Source: an uncultured Clostridia bacterium (GTDB lineage Bacteria; Bacillota; Clostridia; Christensenellales; Borkfalkiaceae). Taken from it: 64,000 bases of DNA. The stretch's first letter is position 1; every line of letters begins with the position of its first letter. The notes beneath the pieces were generated by a model. That model was not told where the DNA came from and did no database searches. It worked only from the letters and a program-made list of their open reading frames with translations. Positions 14,567 to 55,276 of the stretch are shown here, piece after piece. Location of the stretch: contig CANRKK010000006.1 of assembly GCA_947631195.1 (NCBI GenBank), positions 1 to 64,000 on the forward strand, written 5' to 3'. A program made the position numbers and the translations under genes.

Positions 14567-14699
14567 CTCCCGCCAACGGGTGATAAACTTCGCAATACTG
14601 CGTCGCGTTTGCGCACTCCTCGGTCACGTACTTCTGTGTACGCTCCCGTCGTCGCTTACGCACGCTCCTTGTCTTGCTCGTTTCTGACCCGTTGCAGCT
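14567..14699. repeat. Structured repeat, family D, copy 1
   Basis: Outer arms CAACGGGT (14574-14581) and ACCCGTTG (14687-14694) enclose about 105 bases. Inside is a second hairpin, CGTAC-ttctgt-GTACG (14627-14642). Copies at 47.0 and 55.0 kb keep this arm sequence; other copies have different but still complementary arms. Confidence 0.8.
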
Positions 14700-14879
14700 C
14701 CCGCAAGCGGATTATAAGCGGCGCATAACATTGTTGCGCTGCGGCAACTTTCAGTAAGGCTAAAGCCTTCGGTACGACACGTACGTCTATGTACGCTCCT
14801 TCAAGTTTTCCTCGCGCGCCTCGTTCTGCTTGCTTCTAACCGCTTTTAACTTCGTAACTTCAGCTCCCGCAATTCTAAA
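14700..14879. repeat. Structured repeat, family D, copy 2
   Basis: Outer arms are AAGCGG(a)TTA (14705-14714) and TAACCGCTT (14837-14845). Inner hairpins are AAGGCTaaAGCCTT and CGTAC-gtctat-GTACG. It directly follows copy 1 and has different outer arms. Confidence 0.75.
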
Positions 14880-15028
14880 TTATGTACACCGCCCATTAAG
14901 CCGTGTCATTTCGAACGATATGAGACCCGCTGAAAGCGGGCGATTGAGTGAGAGTTCTCACACGGCGTAAGGACAACGCCGTGTTCGGTCACCGTTCGCG
15001 CCTTGCACTATGCGCGCACTCATCTCGC

Positions 15029-15083
15029 GCGGCAAAACAGCGCACTGTGCTGTTTTGAAAATTCCGCGCTCGTCCCCCCGTGG
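15029..15083. repeat. Dispersed repeat, family G, copy 2
   Basis: It repeats bases 1-55 of the window with only a few changes and keeps the hairpin CAAAACAGC / GCTGTTTTG. The gattggtcgaggttggata that follows it here recurs at 47.3 and 47.6 kb. Confidence 0.75.
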
Positions 15084-15154
15084 ATTGGTCGAGGTTGGAT
15101 AGGACGGCTTCCCTCTTGGCTCCACGTAGTAAGCGGGAGAGGCACCGTTTCCCC

Positions 15155-15215
15155 TCCCCTTGGCTCCCCGTAGTAAGGGGAGCTGTCGAGCAAAGCGAGA
15201 CTGAGGGGATTGTCA
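15155..15215. repeat. Dispersed repeat, family E, copy 1
   Basis: The pattern is cttggctcccc, gtagtaaggggagctgtc, a small hairpin with arms GTC/GAC, then ctgaggggattgtc. Other copies are at 34.7, 47.7, 55.3 and 55.6 kb. Confidence 0.75.
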
Positions 15216-15274
15216 ATTCCCGTTTGATAAGCGATAATGTAAGTTAAGCGGTATGGTAATTAAGATACTTGGCT

Positions 15275-15289
15275 GCAGCGACACGCTGC
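15275..15289. repeat. Palindromic repeat, family H, copy 1
   Basis: GCAGCG-aca-CGCTGC, after taagatacttg. The same context at 46.8 and 55.4 kb carries GCAACGT-c-ACGTTGC, and at 47.8 kb CGGCG-aca-CGCCG. Confidence 0.6.
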
Positions 15290-15370
15290 TTTTGTCCCGC
15301 CCACCCCCCCCAATAATGTTAAAAAAGTGGGGAAACGCGATACCGCAATTCTAAAAATAATTCCAACGCA

Positions 15371-15546
15371 ACCGTGCCCTCTTCCGTCACATATACACAG
15401 GGCTCCCAAAAATTGCAGCATAGCGCAATTTTTGGGAAGAGGAGCCGCAACATGGCAACTTTGCCGTTTACGCGAAGTGTAAATCGGCTTAAAGCCAATG
15501 TTTGCGGCGACGAGGGGCAGGGTGTCACGAAGTGACGGGTGGGAGC
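15371..15546. repeat. Family B repeat split by an inserted hairpin element
   Basis: The two ends of a family B copy (15371-15390 and about 15513-15546) are separated by about 120 bases found nowhere else in the window. The insert starts with a 12-bp perfect hairpin, CCCAAAAATTGC (15405-15416) and GCAATTTTTGGG (15425-15436), inside outer arms GGCTC/GAGCC. A second inverted repeat (gccgtttac / gtaaatcggc) lies further in. Confidence 0.65.
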
Positions 15547-15567
15547 AACGCGCCAATCCCCAAAATT

Positions 15568-15596
15568 CGTCCGCTGAAAATGCGGGCGCGTTTTTT
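15568..15596 (+). terminator. Terminator-like hairpin before the MATE gene
   Basis: CGTCCGC, a seven-base loop and GCGGGCG are followed within two bases by TTTTTT. The nearest upstream plus-strand gene ends 1 kb away, so it may insulate the next promoter. Confidence 0.6.
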
Positions 15597-15598
15597 AT

Positions 15599-15627
15599 TT
15601 GACTTAATCTTTTTGGCATACTATAAT
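15599..15627 (+). promoter_or_regulatory. Sigma-A promoter of the MATE gene; transcript probably leaderless
   Basis: TTGACT (15599-15604) and TATAAT (15622-15627) have a 17-base spacer. Only eight bases separate the -10 box from the ATG at 15636, so transcription should begin one to three bases before, or at, the start codon. Confidence 0.8.
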
Positions 15628-15635
15628 ACTTTGGT

Positions 15636-17021
15636 ATGCAAAAGTCAAAGACGGTAGATTTAACAAGCGGCGGGGTATGGCTCACGCTTTTCAAATACAC
15701 CCTGCCGTTATTCGGGTGCGCGATGGTCCAGCAGCTCTATTCGATGGTGGACCTTTTGGTCGTGGGCAATTTTTCCGCTGGCGGCGCGCTGTCTGTGGAC
15801 GCGGTTGGCAACGCCACCAACGTAATAAACATCTTGCTGGCCTTTGCCATAGGCGCAAACGGCGGCTGTTCGGTAATAGTCGCCAAGCACTTCGGCGAAA
15901 AAAGCAACTTAAAGGTGCGCGAAACGGTGAACACTTCGGCCCTGTCCTTTTCGGTAATGTGCGCCGTGATAATGACCCTCGGCCTCGCCCTCGCGCCGCA
16001 GTTTTTAACGGCCCTCAGCGTGCACGGCAGCTACTATAACGACTGCCTCATGTACCTGTATATCTACACGGGCTCGCTGCCGTTTATATTTTTATACAAC
16101 GTCGGCTGCGGCATATGTTCGGCCCTCGGCGATTCCCAGACGCCCTTCATATTTTTGGTTATATCCTCGCTCTTGAACGTTGCGCTGGACTTTTTGTTCG
16201 TGTGCGCCTTTCATTGGGACGTAGCGGGCGCGGCGTGGGCAACCTTTATATCGCAGGTCATATCGGGCATACTCACGGCGGTAGTGGTGGCGCGCAAACT
16301 CTCCGCCATTCGGCCCGAAAGCAAACCGCGGCTCTTCAACGTGGAAATTTTTAAGGATTTGACCGCAACGTCTATTCCAATAATCTTGCAGCAGTCCTTT
16401 GTGTCCGTCGGCAATTTTTTTGTGATGCGCCGCATAAACGAGCTGGGGGAGGACGCCACAACGGGCTTTACCACGGCCTTTAAGCTGGTTACAATCTCCA
16501 ACACGGGCGTAATAAACATGACTAACGGCCTTGCCAACTTTGCCTCCCAAAACAAGGCGGCGCAAAACTACGGCCGCATAAGGCAGGGCTATCTTGCCGT
16601 GCTGACTTTCGGGCTTGTCGTCTCGGCGGTGTTTTTAACGCTGTTCATCGCCCTGCCCGAACCTTTCACCCGCCTGTTCGTGGATAAAACAAAACTCACC
16701 CCCGCGGCGCTGGAGTACTCAAAGCAGTTTTTGGTGATAGTTTCGGCCTTTCTGCCCGCCGTCACCATAAAGATAGTTTCCGACGGCGTCGTGCGCGGCT
16801 GCGGCGGCAACATAGGCTTTGCCGTAAGCACCTTTACCGACCTAATTCTGCGCGTTGCGCTCGTGTACATACTCACCTCGGCGGGCTGGGGCTTTGCGGG
16901 CGTCTGCTGGGCGTGGGCGATAGGCTGGTCGGTGAGCATGTGCCTCGCCGTGGCGTTCTACATAAGGATAAAGTGCTTGCGGGGAGTAAAACTTTTCCCC
17001 CGCGCCGCCCGTAAGGGCTGA
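15636..17021 (+). CDS. MATE-family efflux transporter
   Basis: The 461-residue inner-membrane protein has about twelve hydrophobic segments in two similar halves. LTLFKYTLPLFGCAMVQQLYSMVDLLVVGNF at the start is the usual MATE opening, and GCGGNIGFAVSTFTDLILR lies in the second half. Such proteins export drugs or metabolites in exchange for Na+ or H+; the substrate is not predictable. There is no ribosome binding site, in line with a leaderless message. It has its own promoter. Confidence 0.92.
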   Translation: MQKSKTVDLTSGGVWLTLFKYTLPLFGCAMVQQLYSMVDLLVVGNFSAGGALSVDAVGNATNVINILLAFAIGANGGCSVIVAKHFGEKSNLKVRETVNTSALSFSVMCAVIMTLGLALAPQFLTALSVHGSYYNDCLMYLYIYTGSLPFIFLYNVGCGICSALGDSQTPFIFLVISSLLNVALDFLFVCAFHWDVAGAAWATFISQVISGILTAVVVARKLSAIRPESKPRLFNVEIFKDLTATSIPIILQQSFVSVGNFFVMRRINELGEDATTGFTTAFKLVTISNTGVINMTNGLANFASQNKAAQNYGRIRQGYLAVLTFGLVVSAVFLTLFIALPEPFTRLFVDKTKLTPAALEYSKQFLVIVSAFLPAVTIKIVSDGVVRGCGGNIGFAVSTFTDLILRVALVYILTSAGWGFAGVCWAWAIGWSVSMCLAVAFYIRIKCLRGVKLFPRAARKG

Positions 17022-17028
17022 CGGCCGC

Positions 17029-17057
17029 TTGACTTTATCCGCCGTCGGATATATACT
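17029..17057 (+). promoter_or_regulatory. Sigma-A promoter of lgt-apbE
   Basis: TTGACT (17029-17034) and TATACT (17052-17057) are 17 bases apart, eight bases after the MATE stop codon. The longest lgt frame would start at the TTG of the -35 box, which cannot be translated from this promoter. Confidence 0.7.
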
Positions 17058-17082
17058 TATAAAAAAACAATTGGAGAGCGAT

Positions 17083-17967
17083 ATGCATCCCGGAGCACTT
17101 ATATATTTCACGTCAGACCACAGTTCGGGCGCGCCCGGAATCTATCCCTACGGCCTATGTATGGCGTTGGGCATAATATTGTGCTTTGTTTTTCTGCTGT
17201 TTACCATGTGGAAAATGAAGTTTAACGAGAGCGCGACCGATAAAATTTTGATAATAGGCGTATTCGGCACGGGCTTCGGCATTTTTGCCGCCATGCTGTT
17301 CCAGTCCATGTACAATTTTATCGCCAACCCCGAAGCGGGCTTCCACCTCGGCGGCATGACCTTTTACGGCGGACTGATAGGCGGAGTGGTAAGTTTTTTG
17401 GCCGTATATTGGCTGTATATCTACGTCGTTGCCCCCCGCACCAAGATCAAATTTCTGCAGAACAACATGAACGCCACCCTGACCGACGCCCTGCCGTTTA
17501 TCCCAATCGGAATCTGTATAGCGCACGCGTTCGGCAGGCTCGGTTGCTTTTTCGGCGGCTGCTGCTACGGGCTTCCGTCCGATCAATTCAACACGTGGGG
17601 GCTGCCCTGCGCCGCGCCGTTGCCCGGAGTAAACGTAATCCCCACGCAGCTCTACGAAATGTTCTTTCTGCTGTTGCTTGCGGCCGTCATGTCCCTGTTA
17701 TACTTTAAATTCAGGCTGTACTACAACTTCAGCGTGTACAGCATAGCCTACGGCATATGGCGCTTTTTGATAGAGTTTATCCGCGACGACGCCCGCGGCG
17801 AGTTTTTGGGCGCCGCCCTCACGCCCTCGCAAAAATGGGCGATAGTGATGGTGGTTTTGGGAGTGGGATATATATTCTTGCAAAAGTACGTGCTATCTAA
17901 GCACATGAAGCACCCCGAGGCCGCCCCCGCGGAAGAGCCCAAACAGCAAGAACAGACGGCCGTATGA
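17083..17967 (+). CDS. lgt: Prolipoprotein diacylglyceryl transferase (Lgt-like)
   Basis: Lgt transfers diacylglycerol from phosphatidylglycerol to the lipobox cysteine of prolipoproteins in the membrane. The 294-residue product has seven hydrophobic segments. HAFGRLGCFFGGCCYG is a variant of the Lgt signature, with Cys residues where E. coli has GRxGNF; IPTQLYE and EFIRDDARG are family motifs. I chose ATG 17083, preceded by ggagag and downstream of the promoter. The tail is Ala/Pro/Glu-rich. It overlaps the next gene, which encodes a lipoprotein substrate, by four bases. A dedicated paralogue is possible if another lgt exists. Confidence 0.88.
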   Translation: MHPGALIYFTSDHSSGAPGIYPYGLCMALGIILCFVFLLFTMWKMKFNESATDKILIIGVFGTGFGIFAAMLFQSMYNFIANPEAGFHLGGMTFYGGLIGGVVSFLAVYWLYIYVVAPRTKIKFLQNNMNATLTDALPFIPIGICIAHAFGRLGCFFGGCCYGLPSDQFNTWGLPCAAPLPGVNVIPTQLYEMFFLLLLAAVMSLLYFKFRLYYNFSVYSIAYGIWRFLIEFIRDDARGEFLGAALTPSQKWAIVMVVLGVGYIFLQKYVLSKHMKHPEAAPAEEPKQQEQTAV

Positions 17968-19133
17968 AAAAGTCCGCGCCGCTTTTGATAGGTTTTATAT
18001 TGTCCGCCATGCTTTTTAGCGGCTGTTCGCCCCGACGGGAGTACACGGTAATGGAGGAGGGATTCTACTTTATGAATTCCCCCTCGCTTTTGACCGTGTA
18101 CGACTATTTTTATATAAACAGAGTGGAGGACGGCGGGCGCACCTCAAAGTTTCAACAAATGGCGGAGGAGGTAAACGGACTGTTGAGCGGCCTCGATTCG
18201 GCCCTCTCAACCTCCTACCAAACCTCGGACATCTCCCGCTTCAACGCCGCCGCGGCGGGCGCAACTGTGGAGATAGGGGAAGATACCTATAACGTTCTTT
18301 CAATCGCAAAGAGCGTTTACTCTCTTACGGAGGGCTACTACAACCCCGCCGTGTATTACAGCGTGCAGGCCTACGGCTTCAACGGCGCAGAGCCTCCCGA
18401 AAGCGCCGCAGACCTCCCCTCGGAGGAAGAAATCTCGATATATGTTGAGTTATCCGAACATTTCGGCGACCTTAAACTGACGGCGGCGGAGGGCAAGTAC
18501 TATGCGGAAAAGCCCGCCTATACCGCGGAATTCAACGGCGAAACGCTGTCTCTGAAGTTGGATTTGGGGGGCATAGGCAAGGGATACGCCGCCGACAAGG
18601 CGGACAGGCTGTTTGAAAAATACGGCTACGAATACGGCAAATTCAACTTTGCTTCGAGCTCGGTTGCGTTTAAACGTCACCCGTTGGAGGACAACGCTTT
18701 CACCCTCGCGCTCGTCAATCCCCGCAGACAGATTGAAAACGGCACATACGTGGGCCGCGCCGACTTTTTCAGGGTGGCAGTGTCTGACGTCGCCGTGTCG
18801 TCTGGCGGCGACTACGAAAACTACTACGAACTTGCGGGCGAAAACGGCCCCGTGCGCTATTGCCACATATTCAACCCGTTTACGGGCAAGCCGATAGAAA
18901 GCGGCATAATGTCCGCCACGGTCATAGGCGGTTCGGCGGCCGAAAACGACGCTTTGACCACGGCAATTATGGCAATGGGGCCCCAAAAAGCCGTTGAATT
19001 CATAAATTCAAAACTCGCCTCAAAACAGGTGGTTTTCACCTGCGACACGGGCGGTTACAAATATTATACAAATATCCCGGAGGGATTTTATCAGGTGGTA
19101 AACGACAGTTTTACCCGCCTTGAAATAACTTGA
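17964..19133 (+). CDS. apbE: FAD:protein FMN transferase, lipoprotein
   Basis: ApbE moves FMN from FAD onto a Thr or Ser of target proteins outside the membrane. The 389-residue product has a lipoprotein signal with lipobox LFSGC. LDLGGIGKGYAAD is the core family motif, and the late Mg-site motif reads ENDALTTAI. The likely targets are encoded 4-5 kb away: RnfG and RnfD both carry [S/T]GA[S/T] acceptor sites. Translation is coupled to lgt (ATGA overlap). Confidence 0.95.
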   Translation: MKKSAPLLIGFILSAMLFSGCSPRREYTVMEEGFYFMNSPSLLTVYDYFYINRVEDGGRTSKFQQMAEEVNGLLSGLDSALSTSYQTSDISRFNAAAAGATVEIGEDTYNVLSIAKSVYSLTEGYYNPAVYYSVQAYGFNGAEPPESAADLPSEEEISIYVELSEHFGDLKLTAAEGKYYAEKPAYTAEFNGETLSLKLDLGGIGKGYAADKADRLFEKYGYEYGKFNFASSSVAFKRHPLEDNAFTLALVNPRRQIENGTYVGRADFFRVAVSDVAVSSGGDYENYYELAGENGPVRYCHIFNPFTGKPIESGIMSATVIGGSAAENDALTTAIMAMGPQKAVEFINSKLASKQVVFTCDTGGYKYYTNIPEGFYQVVNDSFTRLEIT

Positions 19134-19134
19134 C

Positions 19135-19593
19135 ATGTCCTTAAAAAAAGTGCAACAAGTGAAAGCGGACAGGGGCTTTAAAATCTTCGACCTCATCGTC
19201 TACGGGGCGATAGCCCTGCTCGTTGCGGCGCTCTTTATCGCCGTGTTCGCCTCCCGCGATACCTCCCCCGTAGAGGGAATAAGGGTGTATGCGGGCGGCA
19301 CGGCCGTGTTTGAGTACGACTTTGAAAAGGGAAGCTATACCGTGCTCGGCGAAAGCGTCACCGTAACCGACGGGGAAGTTTTAACGGTGAAGATAGATAC
19401 AGCAGGCGGCTGCAACGTGCTGGAGATAAACAAGGCAGAACGCACGGCAAAGATGGCGGAGGCGGACTGCCGCGGACAGGACTGCGTGCACACGCCCGCG
19501 ATAAAGGACAATTCGGGGATAATCTACTGTTCGCCGCACGGCATAAAAATAGTCCCCTTCGGACACGAAGAGGACGACACGGTACTGATGTAA
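19135..19593 (+). CDS. NusG domain II-containing membrane protein
   Basis: The 152-residue product has one N-terminal membrane helix (about 20-42) and an outside beta-rich domain of the NusG-II type, ending with a conserved Cys-containing stretch (CRGQDCVHTP and IYCSPHGIKIV). It is not the transcription factor NusG. Proteins like this commonly sit with apbE, Gx transporters and rnf genes, as here, so a role in flavin or redox-complex maturation is an inference. It starts one base after the apbE stop and has no clear binding site. Confidence 0.85.
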   Translation: MSLKKVQQVKADRGFKIFDLIVYGAIALLVAALFIAVFASRDTSPVEGIRVYAGGTAVFEYDFEKGSYTVLGESVTVTDGEVLTVKIDTAGGCNVLEINKAERTAKMAEADCRGQDCVHTPAIKDNSGIIYCSPHGIKIVPFGHEEDDTVLM

Positions 19594-19622
19594 AGGGAGC
19601 GCAAAACCCGCGCTCCCTTTTA
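19593..19622. terminator. Terminator between convergent operons
   Basis: AAGGGAGCG / CGCTCCCTT, followed by TT on the plus strand. It overlaps the stop codon of the NusG-II gene and can serve the convergent minus-strand gene too. Confidence 0.8.
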
Positions 19623-19628
19623 AAATTC

Positions 19629-21059: not shown

Positions 21060-21161
21060 ATTTTCACCTCGCGGTATGTTTGTATATATAAAACGATTGA
21101 AAGGGTTCTTTTGTCCCAAAAAGGCGGCGCGAATTTTCGCGCCGCCGCAATTTTTTATGTA

Positions 21162-33965: not shown

Positions 33966-34562
33966 ATGCAGGATATCAAAGGCGCTTTGGTGCCCTATAT
34001 AGTTGAACAGACCTCCCGCGGGGAGCGTTCCTACGACATCTATTCCCGTCTTTTGGAGGACAGAATAATCTTTTTGACGGGTGAGATAGACGACGCCGTG
34101 GCAAACACGGTAGTTGCCCAGCTTATCTACCTCGAGGCAAAGGATCCCTCCAAGGACATTTCCCTCTACATCAACAGCCCGGGCGGCTCCGTTTCGGCGG
34201 GCCTTGCCATCTACGACACCATGAACTACATCAAGTGCGACGTGTCCACCATCTGCATAGGCATGGCGGCGAGCATGGGCGCGTTCCTTCTGTCCAGCGG
34301 GCAAAAGGGCAAGCGTTTCGCCCTGCCCAACAGCGAAATCATGATTCACCAGCCTCTCGGCGGCGCGCAGGGTCAGGCCAGCGACATAAAAATCGCCGCA
34401 GACCACATACTTAAAACAAGGCAAAAGCTCAACGCAATCCTCTCGCAAAACAGCGGCAAGCCGTTGGAAGTGATCGAGCGCGACACCGACCGCGACAACT
34501 ATCTGTCCGCGCAGGAGGCGCTGGAGTATGGGCTTATCGACCGCGTATTCTATAAGAGGTAG
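33966..34562 (+). CDS. clpP: ATP-dependent Clp protease proteolytic subunit
   Basis: The 198-residue product is a normal-length serine peptidase. The catalytic triad is Ser103 in GMAASMG, His128 in MIHQPLGG and Asp177 in [11 protein letters not shown]. It forms a double heptamer and works with ClpX, encoded downstream. aaaggagg is a strong binding site. Unusually, 543 bases of repeat sequence separate it from clpX. Confidence 0.98.
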
Positions 34563-34717
34563 GCTCCCGCGGCGGCGTGTATAAGCGTCGTTCTGCTGTG
34601 TTGCGCTGCGGCAACTTTCAGTCACGTACGTCAAAGTACGCTCCTTCAAGTTTTCCTCGCGCGCCTTGCATAACTCGCTTCTACCCACCGCATAACTTCG
34701 TAATTGTAGCGCGCACA
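34563..34717. repeat. Structured repeat, family D, copy 3
   Basis: It shares gcgctgcggcaactttcag with copy 2, the inner hairpin in altered form (CGTACgtcaaaGTACG), and the tail tagcaacttcgtaa-like. The outer arms are weaker here. Confidence 0.6.
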
Positions 34718-34728
34718 CTCCCTTGGCT

Positions 34729-34776
34729 CCCTTTAGTAAGGGGAGCTGTCACCGATAGGTGACTGAGGGGATTGTC
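34729..34776. repeat. Dispersed repeat, family E, copy 2
   Basis: It ends in the hairpin GTCACC-gata-GGTGAC (34748-34763). In copies 1, 4 and 6 the same place has a GTCGAG...GAGAC-type hairpin. Confidence 0.75.
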
Positions 34777-34953
34777 AAATAATAGCAGCGTAGCTTGCTT
34801 CGTGTCATTTCGAGCGTGAGCGTAGCGGTAAGCGAGATAATCCCCTCGTGGATTGGTCGAGGTCGGGTGAAACGGACATATAACAAATAATTTTCCTTTT
34901 TTATTTTGTCCCGCCCACCCCCCCAATATTGTTAAAATAGTGGGGAAGCAATA

Positions 34954-35105: not shown

Positions 35106-36323
35106 ATGAAAGATCAGCAATTTTGTTCATTCTGCGGAAAAACCGAAGATTTGGTCAAAAGATTAATAAAGGGCAGAAACGGCGTATGCATATGCGACGA
35201 ATGTATAGAGATCTGCCGCGATATGGTAAAGGATTTGGACGTAGAGGACACTTCGCCCGTGCCTTTAAAGGCGCCCGCCGAAATCAAGGCCGAGCTCGAT
35301 AAATACATCGTCGGGCAAAACGAGGCCAAGCGCGTATTGTCGGTGGCTGTCTACAACCACTACAAGCGCATCAACAATCTCGGCAAGGACGACGGCGAGG
35401 TGGAGATCGAAAAGAGCAACATATTGCTTTTGGGCCCCACGGGCTGCGGAAAGACCCTGCTTGCCAGAACGCTTGCAAAAATTTTGAACGTGCCCTTTGC
35501 CGCTGCGGACGCCACCACGCTTACTGAGGCGGGCTACGTCGGCGAGGACGTTGAAAACATACTCTTAAAACTTATCCAGAACGCCGACTACGATATCTCC
35601 CGTGCCGAGCGCGGCATAATCTATATAGACGAAATAGACAAGATAGCGCGCAAGGGCGAAAACGTATCCATCACCCGCGACGTATCGGGCGAGGGCGTGC
35701 AGCAGGCGCTGTTGAAGATAATCGAAAGCACCATGGCCAACGTGCCCCCGCAGGGCGGCAGAAAGCACCCCCAGCAGGAGTGCCTCAGGATAGACACCAC
35801 CAATATACTCTTTATCTGCGGCGGGGCGTTCGTCGGGCTCGACAAGATAGTGCAAAAGCGGCGCGACAATTCCACTTTGGGCTTCGGCGGCAGCGTAAAG
35901 CAGACTGAGGACAACATCTACGAGATGCTCTCCGACGTAAAGCCGCAGGATTTGACGCAGTTCGGGCTCATTCCCGAATTTGTGGGCAGGGTCCCCATCG
36001 TCGTCAGCCTGCATCCACTCAACGAGGACGCCCTCGTAAGCATTTTGACCCAACCCAAAAACGCGATAATAAAGCAGTACCAAAAACTTATAGCTATGGA
36101 CGGGGTAAAGCTGACGGTGGAGGACTCCGCCGTGCGCGAGATAGCCAACACCGCCATCCGTTTAAAGACGGGCGCAAGGGGACTTAGAACTATTATCGAA
36201 AGTTTTATGACCTCGGTAATGTACAAGATCCCCTCCGAAAAGAACGTTGCCGAAGTGATTGTAACAAAAGAGTGCGTAACCGACAAGGCCGAGCCCAAAA
36301 TCATCTACAAGGAATCGGCCTGA
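35106..36323 (+). CDS. clpX: ATP-dependent Clp protease ATP-binding subunit ClpX
   Basis: ClpX unfolds substrates, including tmRNA-tagged proteins, and feeds them to ClpP. The 405-residue product has the N-terminal zinc finger (CSFCGK and CDECIE), Walker A GPTGCGKT, Walker B YIDEIDKI, and the substrate-gripping loop [11 protein letters not shown] region. The binding site (aagga) lies somewhat far from the ATG. It is followed by lon after 98 bases. How well it takes the unusual tag end CAA encoded at 43.9 kb is an open point. Confidence 0.98.
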
Positions 36324-38738: not shown

Positions 38739-39329
38739 ATGCTCAAAATAAATGCAAAATTTATAACGAGCGCGGCCTCCAAGCAGCAATTTATTCAGCC
38801 CGTAAAGCCGATAATCGCGGTGTGCGGCAAGTCCAACGTGGGCAAATCGAGCTTTATCAACATGCTTGCGGGGCAAAAAAAACTTGCCAAGGTCTCCAAG
38901 GAGCCGGGCAGGACGCGGCTAATTAATTACTTCGACATGGGCGACTTTATCCTTGCCGACCTCCCGGGTTACGGCTACGCGCGCGTGTCGCAGGCCGAAA
39001 AATTGAAGTGGGCCAAACTTCTGGACGATTTTTTCGCCCGCAAGGAGGACATATCCCACGTTTTCAGCCTTGTGGATATCCGCCACGCCCCCACGGCGGA
39101 CGACGTGCAGATGTCCGAATTTTTAAACTACCGCATAATCCCGTTCACGGTCATAGCCACCAAGGCGGACAAACTCTCCCGCGCGCAGATTCACAAAAAT
39201 CTGATAGCCGCGGCCGCCGTCTTAAAGGTTGGCGCGGGCAACATAATCGTCACGTCGGCGGAGACGAGGGTGGGGTTGGAGGCTGTGCACAACAAAATCA
39301 TCTCTATACTCCCGTCAAGCGGATTATAA
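38739..39329 (+). CDS. engB: Ribosome biogenesis GTPase EngB/YsxC
   Basis: This essential GTPase assists 50S assembly. The 196-residue product has G1 GKSNVGKSS, G3 DLPGYG and G4 TKAD, and the typical EPGRTRLINYF switch region. The order lon-engB is the same as in Bacillus. Its end runs straight into a family D repeat. Confidence 0.97.
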   Translation: MLKINAKFITSAASKQQFIQPVKPIIAVCGKSNVGKSSFINMLAGQKKLAKVSKEPGRTRLINYFDMGDFILADLPGYGYARVSQAEKLKWAKLLDDFFARKEDISHVFSLVDIRHAPTADDVQMSEFLNYRIIPFTVIATKADKLSRAQIHKNLIAAAAVLKVGAGNIIVTSAETRVGLEAVHNKIISILPSSGL

Positions 39330-39478
39330 GCGTCGCAATACTGTGTCGCGTTTGCGCGCTCCTCGGTAAGGCTGCGCCTTCGGTACGACACGTACTTCTA
39401 TGTACGCTCCCTTCGTCGCTTACGCACGCTCCTTGTCTTGCTCGCTTCTAACCGCTTGCAGACTTCGTAATTACAGTT
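39308..39478. repeat. Structured repeat, family D, copy 4
   Basis: Outer arms are CAAGCGG(a)TTA (39316-39326) and TAACCGCTTG (39449-39458). Inner hairpins are AAGGCtgcGCCTT and CGTACttctatGTACG. The repeat overlaps the last codons of engB, so it supplies part of the C-terminus (PSSGL). Confidence 0.75.
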
Positions 39479-43752: not shown

Positions 43753-44139
43753 GGGCGAGTTTCAGATTCGATTGCGGGAGGAGAGGAAGAAAAGCATACC
43801 AAAGGCACGGCTTTGTAAAAACGGAACTTAAATTTAAACGCAGATAAAAAATCTGAAAAAGTTGTAGCTTTCCCCGCTGCTCGCGCGGTAGGCTGCGCTT
43901 GCGCCGCTTAACTTAAGCGGTCCGTTCCGCGCCGGATTCCGTTGACGGCGCGGGGCGTCATTCAAACGGATAGTTTTGCGCTTTCCCTGCCGTGAGGGCG
44001 CACTGCAAAATCAATACGGCATGCCGCGCAACGTTCCCTGTCTTTCGGGGACCTGCGCCAAGCATAAAGAAAGACTAAGTATGTAGAACCCTTTTTTAAT
44101 CCCCGTAAGACTCGGGTGCAAGTCCCGACTCGTCCACCA
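43753..44139 (+). ncRNA. ssrA: Transfer-messenger RNA (tmRNA)
   Basis: tmRNA frees ribosomes stalled on broken messages and tags the protein for degradation. The 387-base RNA has GGGCGAG (43753-43759) pairing with CTCGTCC (44129-44135) as the acceptor stem, with the G3-U70 pair that alanyl-tRNA synthetase needs. The T arm is TCGGG-tgcaagt-CCCGA, and CCA is encoded. Other landmarks: gattcgattgcggga near the 5' end, the first-pseudoknot region gcatacc...tttgtaaaaacgg, and agactaagtatgtag near the 3' end. The stop of the tag frame lies in a stem (CCGCTTAA / TTAAGCGG), as usual. Its partners ClpX, ClpP and Lon lie 5-10 kb upstream. Confidence 0.95.
43840..43911 (+). other. tmRNA tag reading frame
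   Basis: Read from resume codon GCA at 43840 to TAA at 43909, the tag has 23 residues, starting ADKKSEKVV, passing AFPAARAV and ending GCACAA. The other two frames hit stops within four to ten codons. The usual tag is about 10-15 residues and ends in ALAA. The resume position is inferred from spacing and the open frame. Confidence 0.75.
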
Positions 44140-44333
44140 AGCAGCCCAGCCGCAAACAGCGGCTGGGCTGCTTGGTGGATATACGGAGGGCCTTGAGTCC
44201 CGTCGCATCGAAGCCCGCAGGGCTTACTCGTCCACCAAGCAGCCCAGCCGCAAACAGCGGCTGGGCTGCTTGGCGGATATACGGAGGGCCTTGAGTCCCG
44301 TCGTACCGAAGCCCGTAGGGCTTACTCGTCCAC
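44131..44333. repeat. 98-bp tandem repeat starting inside the tmRNA 3' end
   Basis: Units 44131-44228 and 44229-44326 match at 94 of 98 positions, followed by a seven-base third start (cgtccac). Each begins with cgtccacca, the last bases of tmRNA, then a long hairpin, then a second small hairpin (agcccgcagggct or agcccgtagggct). Confidence 0.85.
44133..44179 (+). other. 21-bp hairpin overlapping the tmRNA 3' end
   Basis: Arms 44133-44153 and 44159-44179 are perfectly complementary, with loop aaaca. The 5' arm includes the last seven bases of mature tmRNA (TCCACCA), so this fold competes with the acceptor stem. No T run follows. The second tandem unit has one mismatch in the same stem. Confidence 0.8.
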
Positions 44334-46978: not shown

Positions 46979-46979
46979 G

Positions 46980-47137
46980 CTCCCGCCAACGGGTGATAAA
47001 CTTCGCAATACTGTGTTGCGCTCCGCTTGTCTGCGGGTCACGTACGTCTATGTACGCTCCCCTTGTCAATGCTCGCGCGCCTTGTCTTGCTCGTTTCTGC
47101 CCCGTTGCTAACTTCGTAAAAACAGCTCCCGCAATAT
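46980..47137. repeat. Structured repeat, family D, copy 5
   Basis: Outer arms CAACGGG (46987-46993) and CCCGTTG (47101-47107); inner hairpin CGTAC-gtctat-GTACG (47041-47056). Confidence 0.8.
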
Positions 47138-47417: not shown

Positions 47418-47626
47418 TGTCTTGCTCGTTTCTGCCCCGTTGCTAACTTCGTAAAAACAGCTCCCGCAATATAAAATATGTACACCGCAAGTTAAGCCGT
47501 GTCATTTTGCGCGAGGCGGCTTCGCCGCCGCTGCCCTGCCGAGGGTTCCCGCTTTGCGGGAAGCGGCAGAACGTGAGCGAAGCGGTAAGCGAAATAATCC
47601 CCCCGTGGGTTGGTCGAGGTTGGATA
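47418..47626. repeat. 209-bp direct repeat, right copy
   Basis: Second copy of 47083-47291. Because it begins in the middle of a family D unit, the duplicated block is not itself a whole repeat element. Confidence 0.9.
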
Positions 47627-47650: not shown

Positions 47651-47711
47651 CCCCCCTTGGCTCCCTTTAGTAAGGGGAGCTGTCGAGCAACGCGAGACTG
47701 AGGGGATTGTC
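47651..47711. repeat. Dispersed repeat, family E, copy 4
   Basis: cttggctccctttagtaagg, ggagctgtc, hairpin GTCGAGcaacGCGAGAC, ctgaggggattgtc. Confidence 0.75.
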
Positions 47712-49071: not shown

Positions 49072-49100
49072 TTGTATTTTTTCGGGGAGCGTGCTACAAT
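49072..49100 (+). promoter_or_regulatory. Promoter of the HTH membrane protein gene; probably leaderless
   Basis: TTGTAT and TACAAT with a 17-base spacer; the ATG at 49108 is only seven bases after the -10 box. Confidence 0.7.
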
Positions 49101-49107
49101 ATTCGGT

Positions 49108-49719
49108 ATGGACGAATTAAAGACCACCATTGCAAAAAATTTGGTTGAACTGCGCACGCAGGCCCACCTGACGCAGCTGCAACTTGCCGAAATGCTCAAC
49201 TATTCCGACAAGGCGGTGTCAAAATGGGAGAGGGGGGAAGCCATTCCCGACCTGCGCGTACTGATAAAACTCAGCGAGATTTACGGCATAACTTTGGACG
49301 CGCTCGTAAAGGGCACTTCGGTCGCGGCCGAAGCAAAGCCCAAAAAGCACATAGCGTCAAAGCGCGTGTTTATAGCTGCGCTCAGCGTTATCCTGGTGTG
49401 GTTTATAGCCACGGGCATATACGCCATGCTGTATTTCATTCCGCCCACTTCGGAGTATGCCTATCTCGTCTTTGTAGTTGCGCCCCTGCCCACGGGCATA
49501 GTTTTAACTGTGTTTTCCTCCCTGTGGGGCAACAGGGTCACGCACGCGCTGTCCTCCTCGCTCATACTGTGGGCGTGCGTGATAATAGTGCGGGTGTACG
49601 TGTGGGCTTTCGTGCCCGCGTACAGGCAGATATTCGTAATCTACATCGTTGCCGCGGTGTTTGAAATACTAATAGTAGTATGGTTCATCTACCGCTGGTA
49701 CGTTGCCAAAAAAAGATAA
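49108..49719 (+). CDS. XRE-type regulator with C-terminal membrane domain
   Basis: The 203-residue product has an HTH_3 domain (about 8-65; LTQLQLAEMLNYSDKAVSKWERGEAIPD is a textbook helix-turn-helix) and a C-terminal part with four membrane helices (about 90-200). Such proteins may sense a membrane signal and bind DNA. The long frame's earlier TTG lies in the -35 box and was rejected. There is no binding site, in line with a leaderless message. gltX follows after 12 bases. Confidence 0.85.
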   Translation: MDELKTTIAKNLVELRTQAHLTQLQLAEMLNYSDKAVSKWERGEAIPDLRVLIKLSEIYGITLDALVKGTSVAAEAKPKKHIASKRVFIAALSVILVWFIATGIYAMLYFIPPTSEYAYLVFVVAPLPTGIVLTVFSSLWGNRVTHALSSSLILWACVIIVRVYVWAFVPAYRQIFVIYIVAAVFEILIVVWFIYRWYVAKKR

Positions 49720-49731
49720 AAGGAAGAGAAT

Positions 49732-51375
49732 ATGGACTTAAAAAAATTAGCGGCCGCGCTCATTCCCGACGACGACCTTATCGACCCCGACAAATACGAA
49801 CAGATCTATCCCCCGCGCGACTTGCCGCAGGGCGCGCAGGTGACGCGGCTCGCCCCGTCGCCCACGGGCTTCATACATTTGGGCAACCTCTTTTCTGCGC
49901 TTGCCGACGAGCGGATGGCGCACACCACGGGCGGAGTTTTCTATCTGAGGATAGAGGACACCGACTTAAAGCGCAAGGTCGACGGCGCGGTGGAAAGCGT
50001 GATCCGCTCCCTTAAATACTTCGGCATACGTTTCGACGAGGGCGCGGAGATAGAGTCAAAACTCAACATATACGGGCCATACTACCAGCGGCAGCGCGCC
50101 CAAATCTACCGCGCGTACGCAAAGCGGCTGATAGAACAGGGGCTGGCTTATCCCTGTTTTTGCACCGAGGAGGAACTGAACAAGGTCCGCGAGGAGCAAA
50201 ACGCCCAAAAACTCATAACGGGCTACTACGGCAAGTACGCCAAGTGCCGCAACCTTTCGGAGGAGCAGATCTATGCAAACCTCGCGGCGGGCAAGCCCTT
50301 CGTTATCCGCTTCAAATCGCAGGGGGACGTGAACGTAAAACACCCCTTCAAGGACGCCATAAAGGGTGAAATAACCGTCACCGAAAACGATCAGGACATA
50401 GTTATAATAAAGTCCGACGGCATACCCACCTATCACTTTGCGCACGCTATCGACGACCACTTTATGCGCACCACGCTCGTCATACGCGGGGAGGAGTGGC
50501 TCTCCAGCCTGCCCATTCACCTCGAACTTTTTAAGGCGCTCGGCTTTAAGACCCCAGTGTACGCGCACACTTCCTCGCTCATGAAAACGGAGGGCGAAAC
50601 CCGCCGCAAGCTCTCAAAGCGCAAGGACCCCGAGCTTTCCCTCGACTACTACCGTTCGCAGGGCTACTATCCCGAGGCGGTGGTAAGATATCTTTTGACC
50701 ATTCTCAATTCCAACTACGAGGAGTGGGAGCGCAAAAACCCGCAGGCCGACTGGCGTGAATTCAAGTTCAAAATCGACAAGATGAGCCGCAGCGGCACGC
50801 TGTTCGATTTGGATAAACTTTCGGACATCTCCAAAACCCGCATATCGATGCTCTCCGCGGAGGAGTGCTGCGCCTTTTTGAAGGAGTGGGCGCTCGAATT
50901 CGGCTCCGAAACCGACAAACTTCATTTCCGCGACGAGGAATATATTATAAAGATACTCACGCTCATTATGGGCATAGGCGGCAAAAAGCGCCGCAAGGAC
51001 ATAGAGCGCGCCTCGCAGGGCGTGCGCCTCATGGATTATTTCTTCGACGACACGTTCAACCCGCAATATGCTTTCCGCTTCGACGATAAAACGGTCAACG
51101 CCGTTCTGGACGGGTTTGCGGCCGTCTACGACCCCGCCGACGACAACCAAACGTGGTTTGCAAAGGTAAAATCGCTTGCGCCGCAGGTGGGTTTTGCCGC
51201 CGAAATGGCCGAATACAAGGCAAATCCGGGGGCGTACAAGGGCAGCGTTTCGGACATAGCCGAAATTTTGCGCGTAGCGGTGACGGGCAGTCCGAACTCC
51301 CCCGACCTGTGCACGATAATGGGCATTTTGGGCAAAGAGCGCACCCTTTCGCGCCTTGCCGCCGCCAAGAGATAA
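49732..51375 (+). CDS. gltX: Glutamate--tRNA ligase
   Basis: A class I synthetase that charges tRNA-Glu. The 547-residue product has the HIGH-type motif PSPTGFIHLGN and the KMSKS-type motif RKLSKRKD. The Cys-rich tRNA-acceptor region (YPCFCTEEEL and KCRNLSEEQI) is present. The protein starts about 38 residues before the Rossmann strand, longer than most GltX (about 480), with an acidic N-terminal extension. Binding site aggaag. No T-box leader is visible. Confidence 0.95.
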   Translation: MDLKKLAAALIPDDDLIDPDKYEQIYPPRDLPQGAQVTRLAPSPTGFIHLGNLFSALADERMAHTTGGVFYLRIEDTDLKRKVDGAVESVIRSLKYFGIRFDEGAEIESKLNIYGPYYQRQRAQIYRAYAKRLIEQGLAYPCFCTEEELNKVREEQNAQKLITGYYGKYAKCRNLSEEQIYANLAAGKPFVIRFKSQGDVNVKHPFKDAIKGEITVTENDQDIVIIKSDGIPTYHFAHAIDDHFMRTTLVIRGEEWLSSLPIHLELFKALGFKTPVYAHTSSLMKTEGETRRKLSKRKDPELSLDYYRSQGYYPEAVVRYLLTILNSNYEEWERKNPQADWREFKFKIDKMSRSGTLFDLDKLSDISKTRISMLSAEECCAFLKEWALEFGSETDKLHFRDEEYIIKILTLIMGIGGKKRRKDIERASQGVRLMDYFFDDTFNPQYAFRFDDKTVNAVLDGFAAVYDPADDNQTWFAKVKSLAPQVGFAAEMAEYKANPGAYKGSVSDIAEILRVAVTGSPNSPDLCTIMGILGKERTLSRLAAAKR

Positions 51376-51403
51376 AAAATAATTTTTTACGGAGGAAAAA
51401 CGT

Positions 51404-52132
51404 ATGCCGATAGTTACGGCCATTCTTGTGGCGGCCTTTCTGTTCATCACGGGCAGCATGCTCGGCTGGGTTACCGAAGTGCTGTTCCGCCGCATCTTCA
51501 CCGCAAAAAAATGGATCAACCCGGGCTTTTTGACGGGTCCCTACCTGCCGCTGTACGGCTTCGGGATAGTGGGATTGTTCGCCATTTCCTTTTTGCCCAT
51601 ATACACGGGCTACGCGTGGCTGGACGCTATAATCATAATTTTGATAATGGGCGTCGTTATGACGCTTATCGAATATCTTGCGGGGCTGATCTTCATCAAG
51701 GGCATGAAGATAAAGCTGTGGGACTATTCCAACCGTTGGGGCAACATACAGGGCATAATCTGCCCGCTGTTTTCTCTGTTTTGGCTGTTGATAGGCGCGT
51801 TCTACTATTTTGTGGTCCGCCTGTACGTAATCGACGCCGTGATATGGTTTGTGGAGCACATAGAATTTTCGTTCATAGTGGGGCTGTTCCTCGGCGTATT
51901 TTTGGTGGACCTCGGCCATTCGCTCAACATCTCGGCAAAGATCCGTAGCTTCGCAAAGGAGCACGACATTGTGGTGCACTTTGAAAAATTGAAGGAGACG
52001 GTAAAGGATAAGGTGGAGCAGCTGGACAAAAAGAGGGCGAGCTTCGTGTTCCCCTTCAAATCCAACCGCAATTTAAACGAAAATCTTGCAAGTTACAAGG
52101 AAGAAAATTATCCGGAAAAACCGGCAAAATAA
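51404..52132 (+). CDS. Membrane protein of the 'putative ABC transporter permease' family (PF06541-like)
   Basis: The 242-residue product has six likely membrane helices and a charged cytoplasmic tail with a coiled-coil stretch. GWVTEVLFRR, NPGFLTGPYLPLYGFG, EYLAG and WDYSNRWGNIQGIICP are family motifs. Despite the name, the transport role is unproven. It has a strong binding site (ggagg) and precedes the fused ABC exporter by 32 bases. Confidence 0.85.
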   Translation: MPIVTAILVAAFLFITGSMLGWVTEVLFRRIFTAKKWINPGFLTGPYLPLYGFGIVGLFAISFLPIYTGYAWLDAIIIILIMGVVMTLIEYLAGLIFIKGMKIKLWDYSNRWGNIQGIICPLFSLFWLLIGAFYYFVVRLYVIDAVIWFVEHIEFSFIVGLFLGVFLVDLGHSLNISAKIRSFAKEHDIVVHFEKLKETVKDKVEQLDKKRASFVFPFKSNRNLNENLASYKEENYPEKPAK

Positions 52133-52164
52133 AAGCCGCAACCTGCTTGCGGCGGGAGGCATAG

Positions 52165-54972
52165 ATGCTTGAACTCTATAATATAACAAAGGACTACCCC
52201 GTTGCGGGGGGAGTTGTGCACGCCCTGCGCGGCGTTTCGATTCAGTTCCGCAAAAACGAATTCGTGTCCATACTCGGCGCGTCGGGCTGCGGAAAGACCA
52301 CTCTCCTAAACATAATAGGCGGGCTGGACAAATACACTTCGGGCGACCTTTTAATACAGGGCGTGTCCACAAAAAAATACGGCGACAGGGATTGGGATAC
52401 CTACCGCAACCACTCTATAGGCTTCATTTTCCAAAGCTATCACCTCATTCCCCACCAAACCATTCTGCAAAACGTGGAGCTTGCGCTGACGATATCGGGC
52501 GTAGACAAGGAGGAGAGGCGCCAAAGAGCTATAGCCGCCCTTGAAAAAGTGGGTCTGGCCGACAAGCTCAAAAACCGCCCCAACCAGCTTTCGGGCGGGC
52601 AGGCGCAGAGGGTTGCCATAGCCCGCGCGCTCATAAACGACCCCGAAATAGTGCTCGCAGACGAGCCCACGGGCGCGCTCGACTCAAAGACGAGCGTGCA
52701 GATAATGGAGCTTTTAAAGGAGATTTCCAAAGACAGGCTCGTGATTGTGGTCACCCACAATCCCGAACTTGCCGAAAAGTATTCAACCCGCATAATCCGT
52801 CTTTTGGACGGCGAAGTGACCGACGACAGCAACCCCTATTCTGCGCAGGTTACGCCCGCAACGGGGGCCGAAGAGGGCGGCGCGGAGCAAGAGCCCCCCA
52901 AAAAATCCAAGGGCAAAAAGAAAAAAACTTCAATGTCCATGGGCATGGCGTTCATGCTGTCCCTGCGCAACCTGATGTCCAAGGGCAAGCGCACGGCTAT
53001 GGTCTCCTTTGCGGGCAGCATAGGAATTATCGGCGTTTCGATGGTGCTTGCAATCTCCGCAGGCGTGCAAAACTACATAGCCTATATGGAGGACGACATG
53101 CTCTCGGGCTATCCGCTCACCGTCACGGAGCAGGCGATAGACTTCACCTCGCTCATGGACGCGGCCCAAAACTCCGGCCAAAAGGTGGATATAACCAAGC
53201 TGAAGGATAAGGTGTACGTCGATTCCCTCCTCGAAACGCTGATGAACTTCGACGGCGCGATGACGACTAACGACATCACGGCGGAATACCGCGACTACGT
53301 TGCGGCGATGCCCGCCGAGTACTCCAACGCGGTACAGTTCGGCTACGACTTCGACATGTCCAACTATATATTTACCGATTTCAGGGTTTCCGACGGCGAC
53401 ATAGACCCCGCCATAGACACCAGCGGCAGATATTCCGTAACGGGCATACGCAGCATGTACACCAATATTTTGGGCGAGGTGGAGGACTACAAGCAGTATT
53501 CGCCGATGATATCCACGGTCACCTCCTTCCGCGAAATTCCAAACAACTATAACTATATTCTCTCCCAGTACGACATTCTCGCCTCCGACCTCGGCAAAAC
53601 CGAAAAGCTCACCCAAAGCGAGCTGCAGTCGATGTTTTGCGACAAGGAAAGCCTCATTATGGTGGTGGACGACAGCGAATTCTCCGATCTCAACTTCGGG
53701 CAGTTCGGCTATCTCACCGAGGAGGAGTTTTTGAATCTCGCGTTCAAGGCCGCGCAGGACGAGAGCTACGACGAGGGCATAATACACGACATTCTGGAAA
53801 ACGGCAAGGACTTCGGCTTCTTTATAGGCGACGACGCGCAGCAGTTCGCGTGGTATCCCGCAAACACGATATTCACCAAAAGAGCGGTCCCCATGCAAAT
53901 TCCTAACGGCGTCGGCAGCACTTTGAACTGGGAGTTCGACTATAATTCCAATGCGGAAAACTTCCCCGAGGAGGGCAAGGTGCCCTTAAAAGTGCGCGCC
54001 ATTCTGCAAAAAAAGAAGGGGATTTCCTACGGCTGTCTTTCTTCGGGGCTGTACTATACTAAGGCGCTCACCGAACACACCATACGGGACGGCATGAACA
54101 GCAACGTCGTCCAATATCTTAAGGACAACAACAAGGAAGCCCTCGACGTAGTGCTGTATCTCAACGACTTCACCTACTACGACAACGGCGAATATAAGCG
54201 CATGACCGCAAGCCTTTTAAGCCAAAAGGGCATATCCTATCTTACGAAGAGCGGCAGCATGATGTCAATGATGATGGGCGGCGCCGGCACGGACGGCAAC
54301 CCGCTGGAAGTCACGCTCAACATGCTCGCGGGCAGCGATTTGCCCACTTCCTTCAACATCTATCCCCTCGACTTCGACACCAAGGATCTGGTAACCGACT
54401 ATCTCGACGCATGGAACAACGCCTGCAAGGAGGACGGCACGGGCGTTCTCACCTACGTAAACGCGGCGGGCGAGGAGGTAACCGTTTCAAACCTCGGCGA
54501 AGCGCAAAAAATAACCTATTCTGACACGGTCGGGCTGATAATTTTCATGGTCAACACTATGATACAGATTATAACCATAGCCCTCGTAGCGTTCACCGCT
54601 CTCTCGCTCGTCGTGTCGACGGTAATGGTGGGCATAATAACCTACGTGTCCGTCGTCGAGCGCGTAAAGGAAATAGGCATACTCCGCGCGGTCGGCGCAA
54701 GGAAAAAGGACATCAAGCGGCTGTTCAACGCCGAAACGTTTATAATAGGGCTGGCGGCGGGTCTGGTCGGCATAGGCGTCACCTATCTTTTGTCGCTCGT
54801 GCTCAACCTGATTCTCGGATCGTTGTTCGGAGTGCCCAACATAGCCGCGCTCCCGTTCTGGCAGGCGCTCGTCATGATAGGCGTAAGCGTCGTGCTTACG
54901 TTGATATCGGGGCTTATACCTGCGTCGGCGGCGGCGAAGAAGGATCCCGTCGTTGCCCTCCGCACAGAGTAA
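52165..54972 (+). CDS. Fused ABC exporter: ATPase plus FtsX/MacB-type permease
   Basis: The 935-residue product joins an ATPase (1-225; Walker A GASGCGKT at 38-45, signature LSGGQAQRV, Walker [12 protein letters not shown]) by a Lys-rich linker to a MacB-type permease. One membrane helix (about 275-300) is followed by an outside domain of nearly 480 residues and three C-terminal helices ending in the family tip [11 protein letters not shown]. Such proteins export peptides, lipoproteins or antimicrobials, or act as mechanotransmitters. The very large outside domain suggests a specific partner. No two-component system is nearby. Confidence 0.9.
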
Positions 54973-54973
54973 A

Positions 54974-55107
54974 AGCTCCCGCCAACGGGTGATAAACTTC
55001 GCAATACTGTGTTGCGCTCCGTTTGCCTGCGGGTCACGTACGTCTGTGTACGCTCCCCTTGTCAATGCTCGCGCTCCTTGTCTTGCTCGTTTCTGACCCG
55101 TTGCAAT
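54974..55107. repeat. Structured repeat, family D, copy 6
   Basis: Outer arms CAACGGGT (54983-54990) and ACCCGTTG (55096-55103); inner hairpin CGTAC-gtctgt-GTACG. Confidence 0.8.
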
Positions 55108-55276
55108 GCAATCGCGGATATGCGTCGCATAACTTTGTTGCCTTTACGTTTTTGCTCGGTAAGGCTAACGCCTTCGGTACGACATTTACGTTTAAGTAAA
55201 CTCCTTCGGGTTTTCCTCGCGCAGCCTTGCATAACTCGCTTCTACCCGCCGCTAACTTTGTAATTTCAGCGCCCGC
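55108..55276. repeat. Structured repeat, family D, copy 7
   Basis: The inner hairpin is changed on both sides: TTTAC-gtttaa-GTAAA (55185-55200) replaces CGTAC...GTACG. The other inner hairpin is AAGGC-taac-GCCTT. Outer arms are weak (gcgg / ccgc). Confidence 0.75.

Follow-up and report, generated by a model that had tools for sequence, protein, structure and literature searches.

Family D repeats of an uncultured Clostridia bacterium are gene-end hairpins resembling ERIC sequences in core, fold and position

Several described bacterial repeats and sites form hairpins behind genes. The ERIC (enterobacterial repetitive intergenic consensus) sequences serve in strain typing. The attC sites of integrons lie behind stop codons and conserve a structure while their sequence is free; their antisense strand is the one that folds, their apex is variable, and their R boxes have the form RYYYAAC / GTTRRRY. 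ERIC is traced to first descriptions in 1990-1991, with the remark in a December 2007 review that transposase-driven movement of such sequences was without experimental support (PMC2229807), a 2024 review describes it as present in Enterobacteriaceae and Vibrionaceae (PMC10969869), and the CGTC type of REP (repetitive extragenic palindromic) sequence is likewise given as having no known transposase (PMC3733652). Our analysis concerns the family D repeats in a stretch of 64,000 nucleotides ("the window"; contig CANRKK010000006.1, positions 1 to 64,000) that is part of the 2.34 Mb draft genome of an uncultured Clostridia bacterium. We give a probability of roughly 0.55 to the reading that family D belongs to an ERIC-like superfamily of non-autonomous mobile hairpins, which would be recognised as single-stranded DNA, inserted at gene ends and repaired in their arms by template switching. 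What was observed, and what this reading draws on, is a fold that covaries between genomes, two strands that fold unequally, few wobble pairs, mismatches that stay fixed, a location at gene ends, and arms that contain host codons.

A profile built from four copies and iterated over the window and 68 loci fetched from the same genome gave 86 non-redundant matches, 58 of them near full length. Each repeat is a single rod of about 60 base pairs in about 130 bases. RNAalifold, run on an alignment of 53 own-genome copies, finds 20 pairs in one unbranched rod (both sides have changed in 12 of the 20), and the conserved apex reads TCAC-NTAC-loop-GTAN-GCTCC on the top strand. By eye, the outer arm in this alignment falls into five pairing classes and the next two stems into three and four, and these arm classes recombine among the copies. 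One inner-stem class exchanges its sides (GTTCTGC/GCATAAC versus GCATAAC/GTTCTGC, also by eye), and a few copies, for example C65_3290 and C33_15808, have mismatched inner halves.

Read on the antisense strand, the apex becomes GGAGC-NTAC-loop-GTAN-GTGA, the centre of the E. coli ERIC sequence (a centre confirmed in 5375 of 5426 E. coli genomes), and family D has this same core. A covariance model, R1, which was built from this genome only and carries 20 pairs, matches the E. coli ERIC loci L361 (19.1 bits, E 0.0033) and L360 (16.5 bits, E 0.018) on the expected strand over model positions 31-108; these E-values refer to a search space of 92.7 kb, and further matches in the same search, at E 0.56 and 1.6, are likely due to chance. 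The two elements are alike in length (127 bases for ERIC, about 130 for family D), in forming one long imperfect hairpin, and, when one ERIC and one window copy are folded, in the order of their stems and in an identical apical 3x3 loop, TCA/CTC, around CNTAC/GTANG. The antisense strand of the single ERIC folded is also the better folder, and the ERICs at ybhI and cusC start a few bases from a stop codon in the same orientation (these are the only two distinct E. coli sites considered; six further ERIC matches all represent the ybhI site). On the other hand, the sequences of the arms and of the apex stem differ, the outer arm of family D can be host coding sequence, and the record titles of 80 loci, out of 109 or more, place family D in Clostridia, Alphaproteobacteria and other groups. 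ERIC moreover has TA termini and a TA duplication, neither of which is seen in family D: TA precedes the element in 5 of 51 own-genome left flanks, and by eye the right ends have no counterpart to it. Strict membership in the ERIC family thus fails, and we call family D ERIC-like rather than ERIC because TA-duplicating ends are absent; we uphold the superfamily claim on the strength of core, fold, length and position. REP elements and their associated RAYT transposases offer a looser parallel, as REPs too are widespread multicopy palindromes downstream of genes, but they are 20-40 bp long and have a GTAG or CGTC tag, whereas family D is about 130 bases long and by eye has no end tag. Rfam contributed no name: at gathering score the sole match in the window is a tmRNA, those in 15 carrier loci are two tRNAs and Atu_C8, all off the element, and permissive scans of two stretches gave sub-threshold matches only, outside the copies. 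Titles and the opening lines of abstracts, in which subscription journals are mostly uncovered, contained no report of ERIC-like elements in Clostridia or Alphaproteobacteria, and the listed part of the titles that match the apex letters as a text query looks unrelated; the occurrence of such elements outside the known ERIC hosts is provisionally a new finding. A broader proposal, that ERIC is the enterobacterial branch of a cross-phylum class of single-stranded DNA hairpins, each settling at the 3' end of a gene and co-evolving with that gene as one hairpin, with an outer 3' arm remade from the last host codons and a putative new enzyme to act on it, is at present a tentative one. Relatives of ERIC in Clostridia and other groups, whose arms differ from gene to gene and whose G·A mismatches are fixed, would amount to a natural mutant collection for learning which strand, positions and nucleic acid are recognised, and would make the search for an enzyme and a test of DNA versus RNA direct.

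The earlier note on this DNA had argued from paired changes that selection acts on a fold, in RNA or single-stranded DNA, and comparison among genomes bears out the pairing. R1 was searched in 88 loci of other genomes and gave 108 matches, of which 69, all of at least 60 bits and full model length, were picked by hand; the 39 left out included partial or weaker matches and also some strong ones (several from the relatives G035 and G025, several copies with the side hairpin, and a few more, for example L075 and L134). One of the 69 was removed by a 150-base limit and nine own copies were added, and the resulting 77 sequences (76 distinct) were re-aligned on sequence only. The null model scattered the substitutions of each column randomly over a FastTree tree, in 100 simulations. 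Of the 9180 column pairs, 19 are significant against it at E<0.05, and 15 of these are among the 28 structure pairs given by RNAalifold; the remaining four are the Watson-Crick pair 57-82 on the same rod and three neighbours. Columns 21 and 116 form a Watson-Crick pair in every one of the 77 rows and do so with all four types, A-T, T-A, G-C and C-G. Columns 39 and 100 show significant covariation of a non-Watson-Crick kind (T·G in 37 rows, C·T in 36).

An alignment-free test agrees with this. Pairing scores were computed between the 5' arm, taken as the stretch from 80 to 35 bases ahead of the apex, and the 3' arms of its own and of other copies; the own-arm mean was reached in 0 of 2000 permutations for the own genome (46 exact-apex copies), for G011 (17), for G010 (10) and for a cross-genome set of 82 copies, and in 71 of 2000 for G006 (7 copies). 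In the set of 82, arms from other loci score like shuffled arms (12.5 versus 12.1). The own arm is strictly best in 1/46 copies of the own genome, 7/17 of G011, 6/10 of G010, 3/7 of G006 and 27/82 of the cross-genome set; it is not always strictly best, because copies have arm classes in common. Complementarity may be maintained partly by template switching rather than by base-by-base selection.

The feature that most clearly requires selection is the set of fixed mismatches. The internal-loop positions are mostly pyrimidine-pyrimidine on the gene strand (with one A·C) and therefore mostly G·A on the opposite strand. At columns 19-118 a T·C is kept in 73 of the 77 rows while the adjoining pairs change, and of two adjacent positions in the stem we call C exactly one is paired in 70 rows, neither in 7 and both in none; T·C makes up 72 of the 84 mismatch cells of this stem. 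These mismatches are not decay. The two strands also differ in how they fold. The antisense strand has the lower energy in 76 of 77 sequences with RNA parameters (mean z -5.7 versus -3.5 for the sense strand; antisense z lower in 66) and in 77 of 77 with DNA parameters (-4.0 versus -2.6; lower in 64). Wobble pairs are scarce: the 2117 pair cells of the cross-genome rows comprise 1907 Watson-Crick, 34 G·T, 52 A·C (which are G·T on the antisense strand) and 124 others, while the acceptor and T stems of 19 tRNAs from the window and fetched loci have 206 Watson-Crick, 20 G·T, 1 A·C and 1 other in 228 cells. The G·T share is lower than in the tRNA stems for either strand (p 4e-8 and 8e-6), and the excess of 52 A·C over 34 G·T leans weakly toward the antisense strand (p 0.066). 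Since G·T is rare, and about as frequent as A·C, unlike in the tRNA stems, and since the antisense strand folds better, a DNA hairpin fits better than an RNA one. We infer a hairpin that follows the pairing rules of DNA, or whose arms are renewed by DNA copying, in preference to an RNA helix; of the two possibilities in the earlier note, RNA or single-stranded DNA, it is the DNA side that is favoured.

Family D copies start at the stop codon of the upstream gene or at a terminator's T-run, in the orientation of that gene. The profile search finds seven near-full copies, one partial unit and one interrupted copy in the window, as follows (ORF, open reading frame):
14566..14698, + strand: copy 1, outer arm class AACGGGT/ACCCGTT, one base past the stop of an SSB-family ORF (13878-14564)
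14697..14857, + strand: copy 2, outer arm class AGCGGATTA/TAACCGCT, abutting copy 1, with a side hairpin AAGGCTAAAGCCTT at 14756-14769
34563..34703, + strand: copy 3, outer arm class GCGGCGTGTA/TACCCACCGC, immediately following the stop codon that ends a Clp protease ORF (33966-34562)
39308..39470, + strand: copy 4, model match from 39310, with a side hairpin AAGGCTGCGCCTT
46979..47119, + strand: copy 5, directly behind the T-run of a hairpin like an intrinsic terminator
47418..47454, + strand: partial unit, consisting of the 3' arm and the AACTTCGTAA tail only
54975..55106, + strand: copy 6, two bases past the stop of an ABC/FtsX ORF (52165-54972)
55108..55263, + strand: copy 7, in tandem with copy 6, with apex TTTAC/GTAAA at 55185-55200 and a side hairpin AAGGCTAACGCCTT at 55161-55174
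61701..61904, + strand: interrupted copy, 5' part 61701-61739 and 3' part 61802-61904, with a palindromic insert of about 60 bases between them

The eight copies that the earlier note had placed within 14567..55276 are therefore real (seven near-full and one partial; the interrupted copy lies outside that range), and the apex variant of copy 7 and the variable side hairpins are as it quoted them. Its statement that the copies lie only between genes fails for copy 4, which begins inside the ORF of an MMR_HSR1 GTPase (38739-39329) and contains the TAA of that ORF; the complementary outer arms it described are present, with one mismatch in the 3' arm of copy 5 at 46979 (CCCCGTTG). The host genes in the window are thus of the SSB-family, Clp protease, MMR_HSR1 GTPase and ABC/FtsX kinds, and copy 3 lies upstream of a ClpX-like ORF (35106-36323).

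In the whole own-genome set, 25 of 51 left ends are at the stop of a same-strand ORF (19 within 4 bases and 6 with the stop 18-32 bases inside the element, though one of these 6, C33_15808, actually follows another copy), 13 are behind a T-run and 7 are behind a further copy. The remaining 6 were left unclassed, although inspection places some of these, too, behind a short gene, a terminator or a copy of the element. In other genomes, 123 exact-apex loci had sufficient flank. A same-strand ORF stop falls in the left-end window in 78 of these loci; control windows some 200 bp distant contain one in 23 and 20 loci, and an opposite-strand stop falls at the right end in 27. The association is weak in G005 (1/10) and G006 (3/6). 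The 155 distinct upstream gene ends include 25 clusters with ends from more than one record (two records per genome are possible), the largest being those of genes that we take, from their protein ends, to be queA (9), secY (4) and KduI-like (4). Between this genome and the relative G035, 22 flank matches were found and 15 sites were compared by eye: 5 are occupied in both and 10 have no full element in G035, two of them with possible remnants. A shared site usually holds elements of different classes in the two genomes; the rpsQ-like one has almost the same inner part in both, with unlike outer arms on either side. The comparison with G025 covered 6 distinct sites, and 4 of them hold an element in each genome. 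No empty site with both flanks alignable was seen in G035 or G025, the downstream flanks being mosaics of other repeats. In one case (L287:17045-17185) the element lies in a coding sequence, and the empty-site form in the G025/G035 comparison (CCCAACGGC) resembles the 5' arm of the element (GCCAACGGG), a likeness at one gene that possibly hints at insertion by pairing.

Such positions would also suit an RNA element of the 3'-untranslated region, a rod at the stop codon that affects ribosome release, RNase cleavage or 3' decay, and this is the strongest of the alternatives. The sense orientation directly at stop codons agrees with it, as do the several copies inside apparent operons (clpP-clpX in the window, and gene ends that we presume to be rpsQ-like, secY-like and infA-like) and the persistence of sites across species (queA accounts for 9 of the 155 upstream ORF ends). 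There are precedents in the Yersinia ERIC (with RNase E) and in E. coli REPs within 15 nt of a stop, for which RNA effects are reported (PMC2229807, PMC10969869, PMC12306157). Nevertheless, the strand that an mRNA would carry folds less well than its complement in 76 of 77 sequences, G·T pairs are rare, and 13 of 51 own copies follow a terminator-like T-run and so are probably outside the transcript. We regard an RNA element as doubtful, about half as probable as the mobile DNA hairpin or somewhat less.

At queA, codons of the gene are themselves one arm of the rod. Thirty-seven queA-like 3' ends were examined for a profile match within 175 bases, and 21 have one (13/28 from a family search, whose best 30 loci included two duplicates, 2/3 from a class search, and 6/6 earlier loci, which had been chosen for carrying the element). 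The outer 5' arm consists of the last queA codons together with the stop, and in each species the 3' arm is complementary to that species' own codons; the pairings are TGCCTATT/AATAGGCA, TGCTTGTT/AACAAGCA, TGTCTAAT/ATTAGACA and GCCTGTTT/AAACAGGC, and in L414 the arms match poorly. When arms were permuted among 19 queA loci (L252 and L259 were excluded, as their units start elsewhere), none of 5000 permutations reached the own-arm score, and the own 3' arm was strictly best in 10 of 19 and best or tied in 14 of 19. Some of the differences between these codons are synonymous (TGC/TGT, CTA/TTG), and synonymous codons at a gene end appear tied to DNA beyond the gene. L091, L129, L140 and L258 have a common flank beyond the 3' arm (CAATCCTG or similar), and because of this one old queA insertion with later joint change is the simplest reading. 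A second stretch like the queA end lies downstream in 5 of 11 loci checked, and in L140 a second R1 match begins at that stretch; tandem duplication can therefore capture a gene end. In L422 and L429, whose genes end in CTCTGA or CTCTAA and not TATAA, a C·T mismatch one base off seems by eye to replace the T·C. In two of the loci, L415 and L436, the match is in the 3' half only and the apex is another one; L415, L427 and L436, all downstream of queA, have similar outer arms with a different apex (GACTTCAATAACCAAAAGGTTTATTTCATCC in L415), which suggests a second apical module on the same scaffold.

On the ERIC-like reading, the form recognised would be the antisense single-stranded DNA hairpin, in lagging-strand, transcription-exposed or transfer DNA, and a putative protein would bind it, with the apex and the G·A mismatches as its contacts. 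Further copies would arise at gene ends and through tandem duplication, and fold-back template switching during DNA synthesis would re-copy one arm from the other, such that the 3' arm tracks the host gene end, with selection for recognition preserving the mismatches. Effects on RNA are plausible as by-products, or as a selected function at some genes. Fold-back template switching has itself been reported for quasipalindromes and RNA hairpins (PMC7202029, PMC8794818). The same process could keep tidy a palindrome that has no function at all, and several observations suit this: arms differ in blocks (by eye), wobble intermediates are few, arms follow host codons, and in L306, L308 and L352 the stems extend into the gene. 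A functionless palindrome is nevertheless unlikely, since the T·C is kept in 73 of 77 rows, the stem C mismatch is never paired away (0/77) and the apex is conserved across phyla.

The strict apex pattern occurs at no fewer than 109 loci of the species-genome collection. Among the 80 listed, most are Clostridia, and there are also gut Alphaproteobacteria, Mesorhizobium Root552, an Olavius symbiont, a Nitrospirales and an Acidobacteria bin. Twenty carrier genomes have the pattern 1-49 times each, and the reversed control 0 times. Among 398 genomes of the own phylum, a looser pattern is present in 13, and its control matches once in each of 3 genomes; its free apical pair is seen as G-C, T-A and A-T, and G247, which breaks the pair, may be a chance match. 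R1 scores the Mesorhizobium copy at E 6e-4, the Olavius copy at E 2e-4 and the alphaproteobacterial L087 at E 1e-7; the rods of the Acidobacteria bin were recognised by eye only, and L104, labelled Alphaproteobacteria, carries a copy of the own-genus type and may be a mis-binned contig. In G006 (Clostridiales Family XIII; L331-L339) the apex is part of a longer element that is bounded by inverted repeats (GTTACTACTC...GAGTAGTAAC) and resembles a MITE (miniature inverted-repeat transposable element) carrying the rod. In G005 (L320-L330) several copies have no 5' arm, start near GCTCACGTAC and have a nearly constant 3' end (CTTTTCGAACAC), and these resemble 5'-truncated copies.

Viral origin was rejected, as the strict apex pattern has 0 matches in viral_contigs. 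The Y1 transposase (PF01797), absent from this genome (G000) and present in 10 of the 20 carriers, was rejected as the mobiliser on account of that absence, and reverse transcriptase was rejected because its presence is unlinked to copy number (RVT_1 is absent from the copy-rich G025 and present in G043, where R1 finds none). No mobilising enzyme was thus found among these two, the only families searched, and the co-occurring recombinase or binding protein that the earlier note proposed to look for did not appear among them; nor did any of the loci read show an autonomous version, in which the same ends would enclose a transposase or reverse transcriptase, though no systematic search was made among them.

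These enzyme results count against a mobile ERIC-like hairpin, as do several others. Within the own genome, substitutions number only about 4 in each column, and E<0.05 is reached by 2 of 8646 column pairs and by none of the 20 structure pairs (the best has E 0.16); by the earlier note's own test, covariation beyond phylogeny, this genome by itself does not prove a selected fold. The cross-genome rows were recruited by a model already holding 20 pairs. The ERIC link has modest E-values and a partial match to a model from one genome, and the TA ends of ERIC are missing. Sites are often occupied across species, which also fits a host function. Finally, template switching alone should erase the fixed mismatches, and selection alone should leave more G·T steps.

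Two last alternatives are very improbable. A recombination site recognised by its structure, like the integron attC, would share with family D the position behind stop codons, the folded antisense strand, the strand asymmetry, the free stem sequence and the per-locus arms; however, the outer arms by eye have no constant GTT/AAC, so that attC identity was rejected for want of an R-box core, the apex is conserved whereas that of attC is variable, no cassette arrays were noticed in the loci, and some copies lie between ribosomal-protein-like genes found in both relatives compared. A MITE of IS200/IS605 or REP/RAYT, or a group II intron remnant behind terminators, would account for one-orientation insertion behind T-runs (as in class C group II introns) and for multicopy gene-end hairpins like REPs, but there is no Y1 transposase in this genome, and a class C intron was rejected as the tmRNA is the sole Rfam match in the window and RVT_1 is unlinked to copy number.

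Other repeats accompany family D. The palindromic insert of about 60 bases in the interrupted copy (61739-61802) is found, identical and at the same position, in three family D copies in all, the others being in L022 and L038. Short tandem units consisting of the 3' arm and a tail such as AACTTCGTAAGGGCAA recur about 43 bases apart (window 47418-47454; own loci L013, L017 and L020). Several family D copies have a different repeat family, CCCCTTGGCTCCCTTTAGTAAGGGGAGCTGTC...GACTGAGGGGATTGTC, in their neighbourhood, with members at 15154-15214, 34717-34777, 47651-47711, 55281-55341 and 55573-55633; the second hairpin of this other family has two versions, GAGCAA..GCGAGA and ACCGATAGGTGA. At 44128-44323 the window has a 98-base unit twice in tandem; either unit contains a hairpin of about 20 bp that is perfect or nearly so (CCACCAAGCAGCCCAGCCGC...), and the tandem overlaps the 3' end of the tmRNA match (43753-44139).

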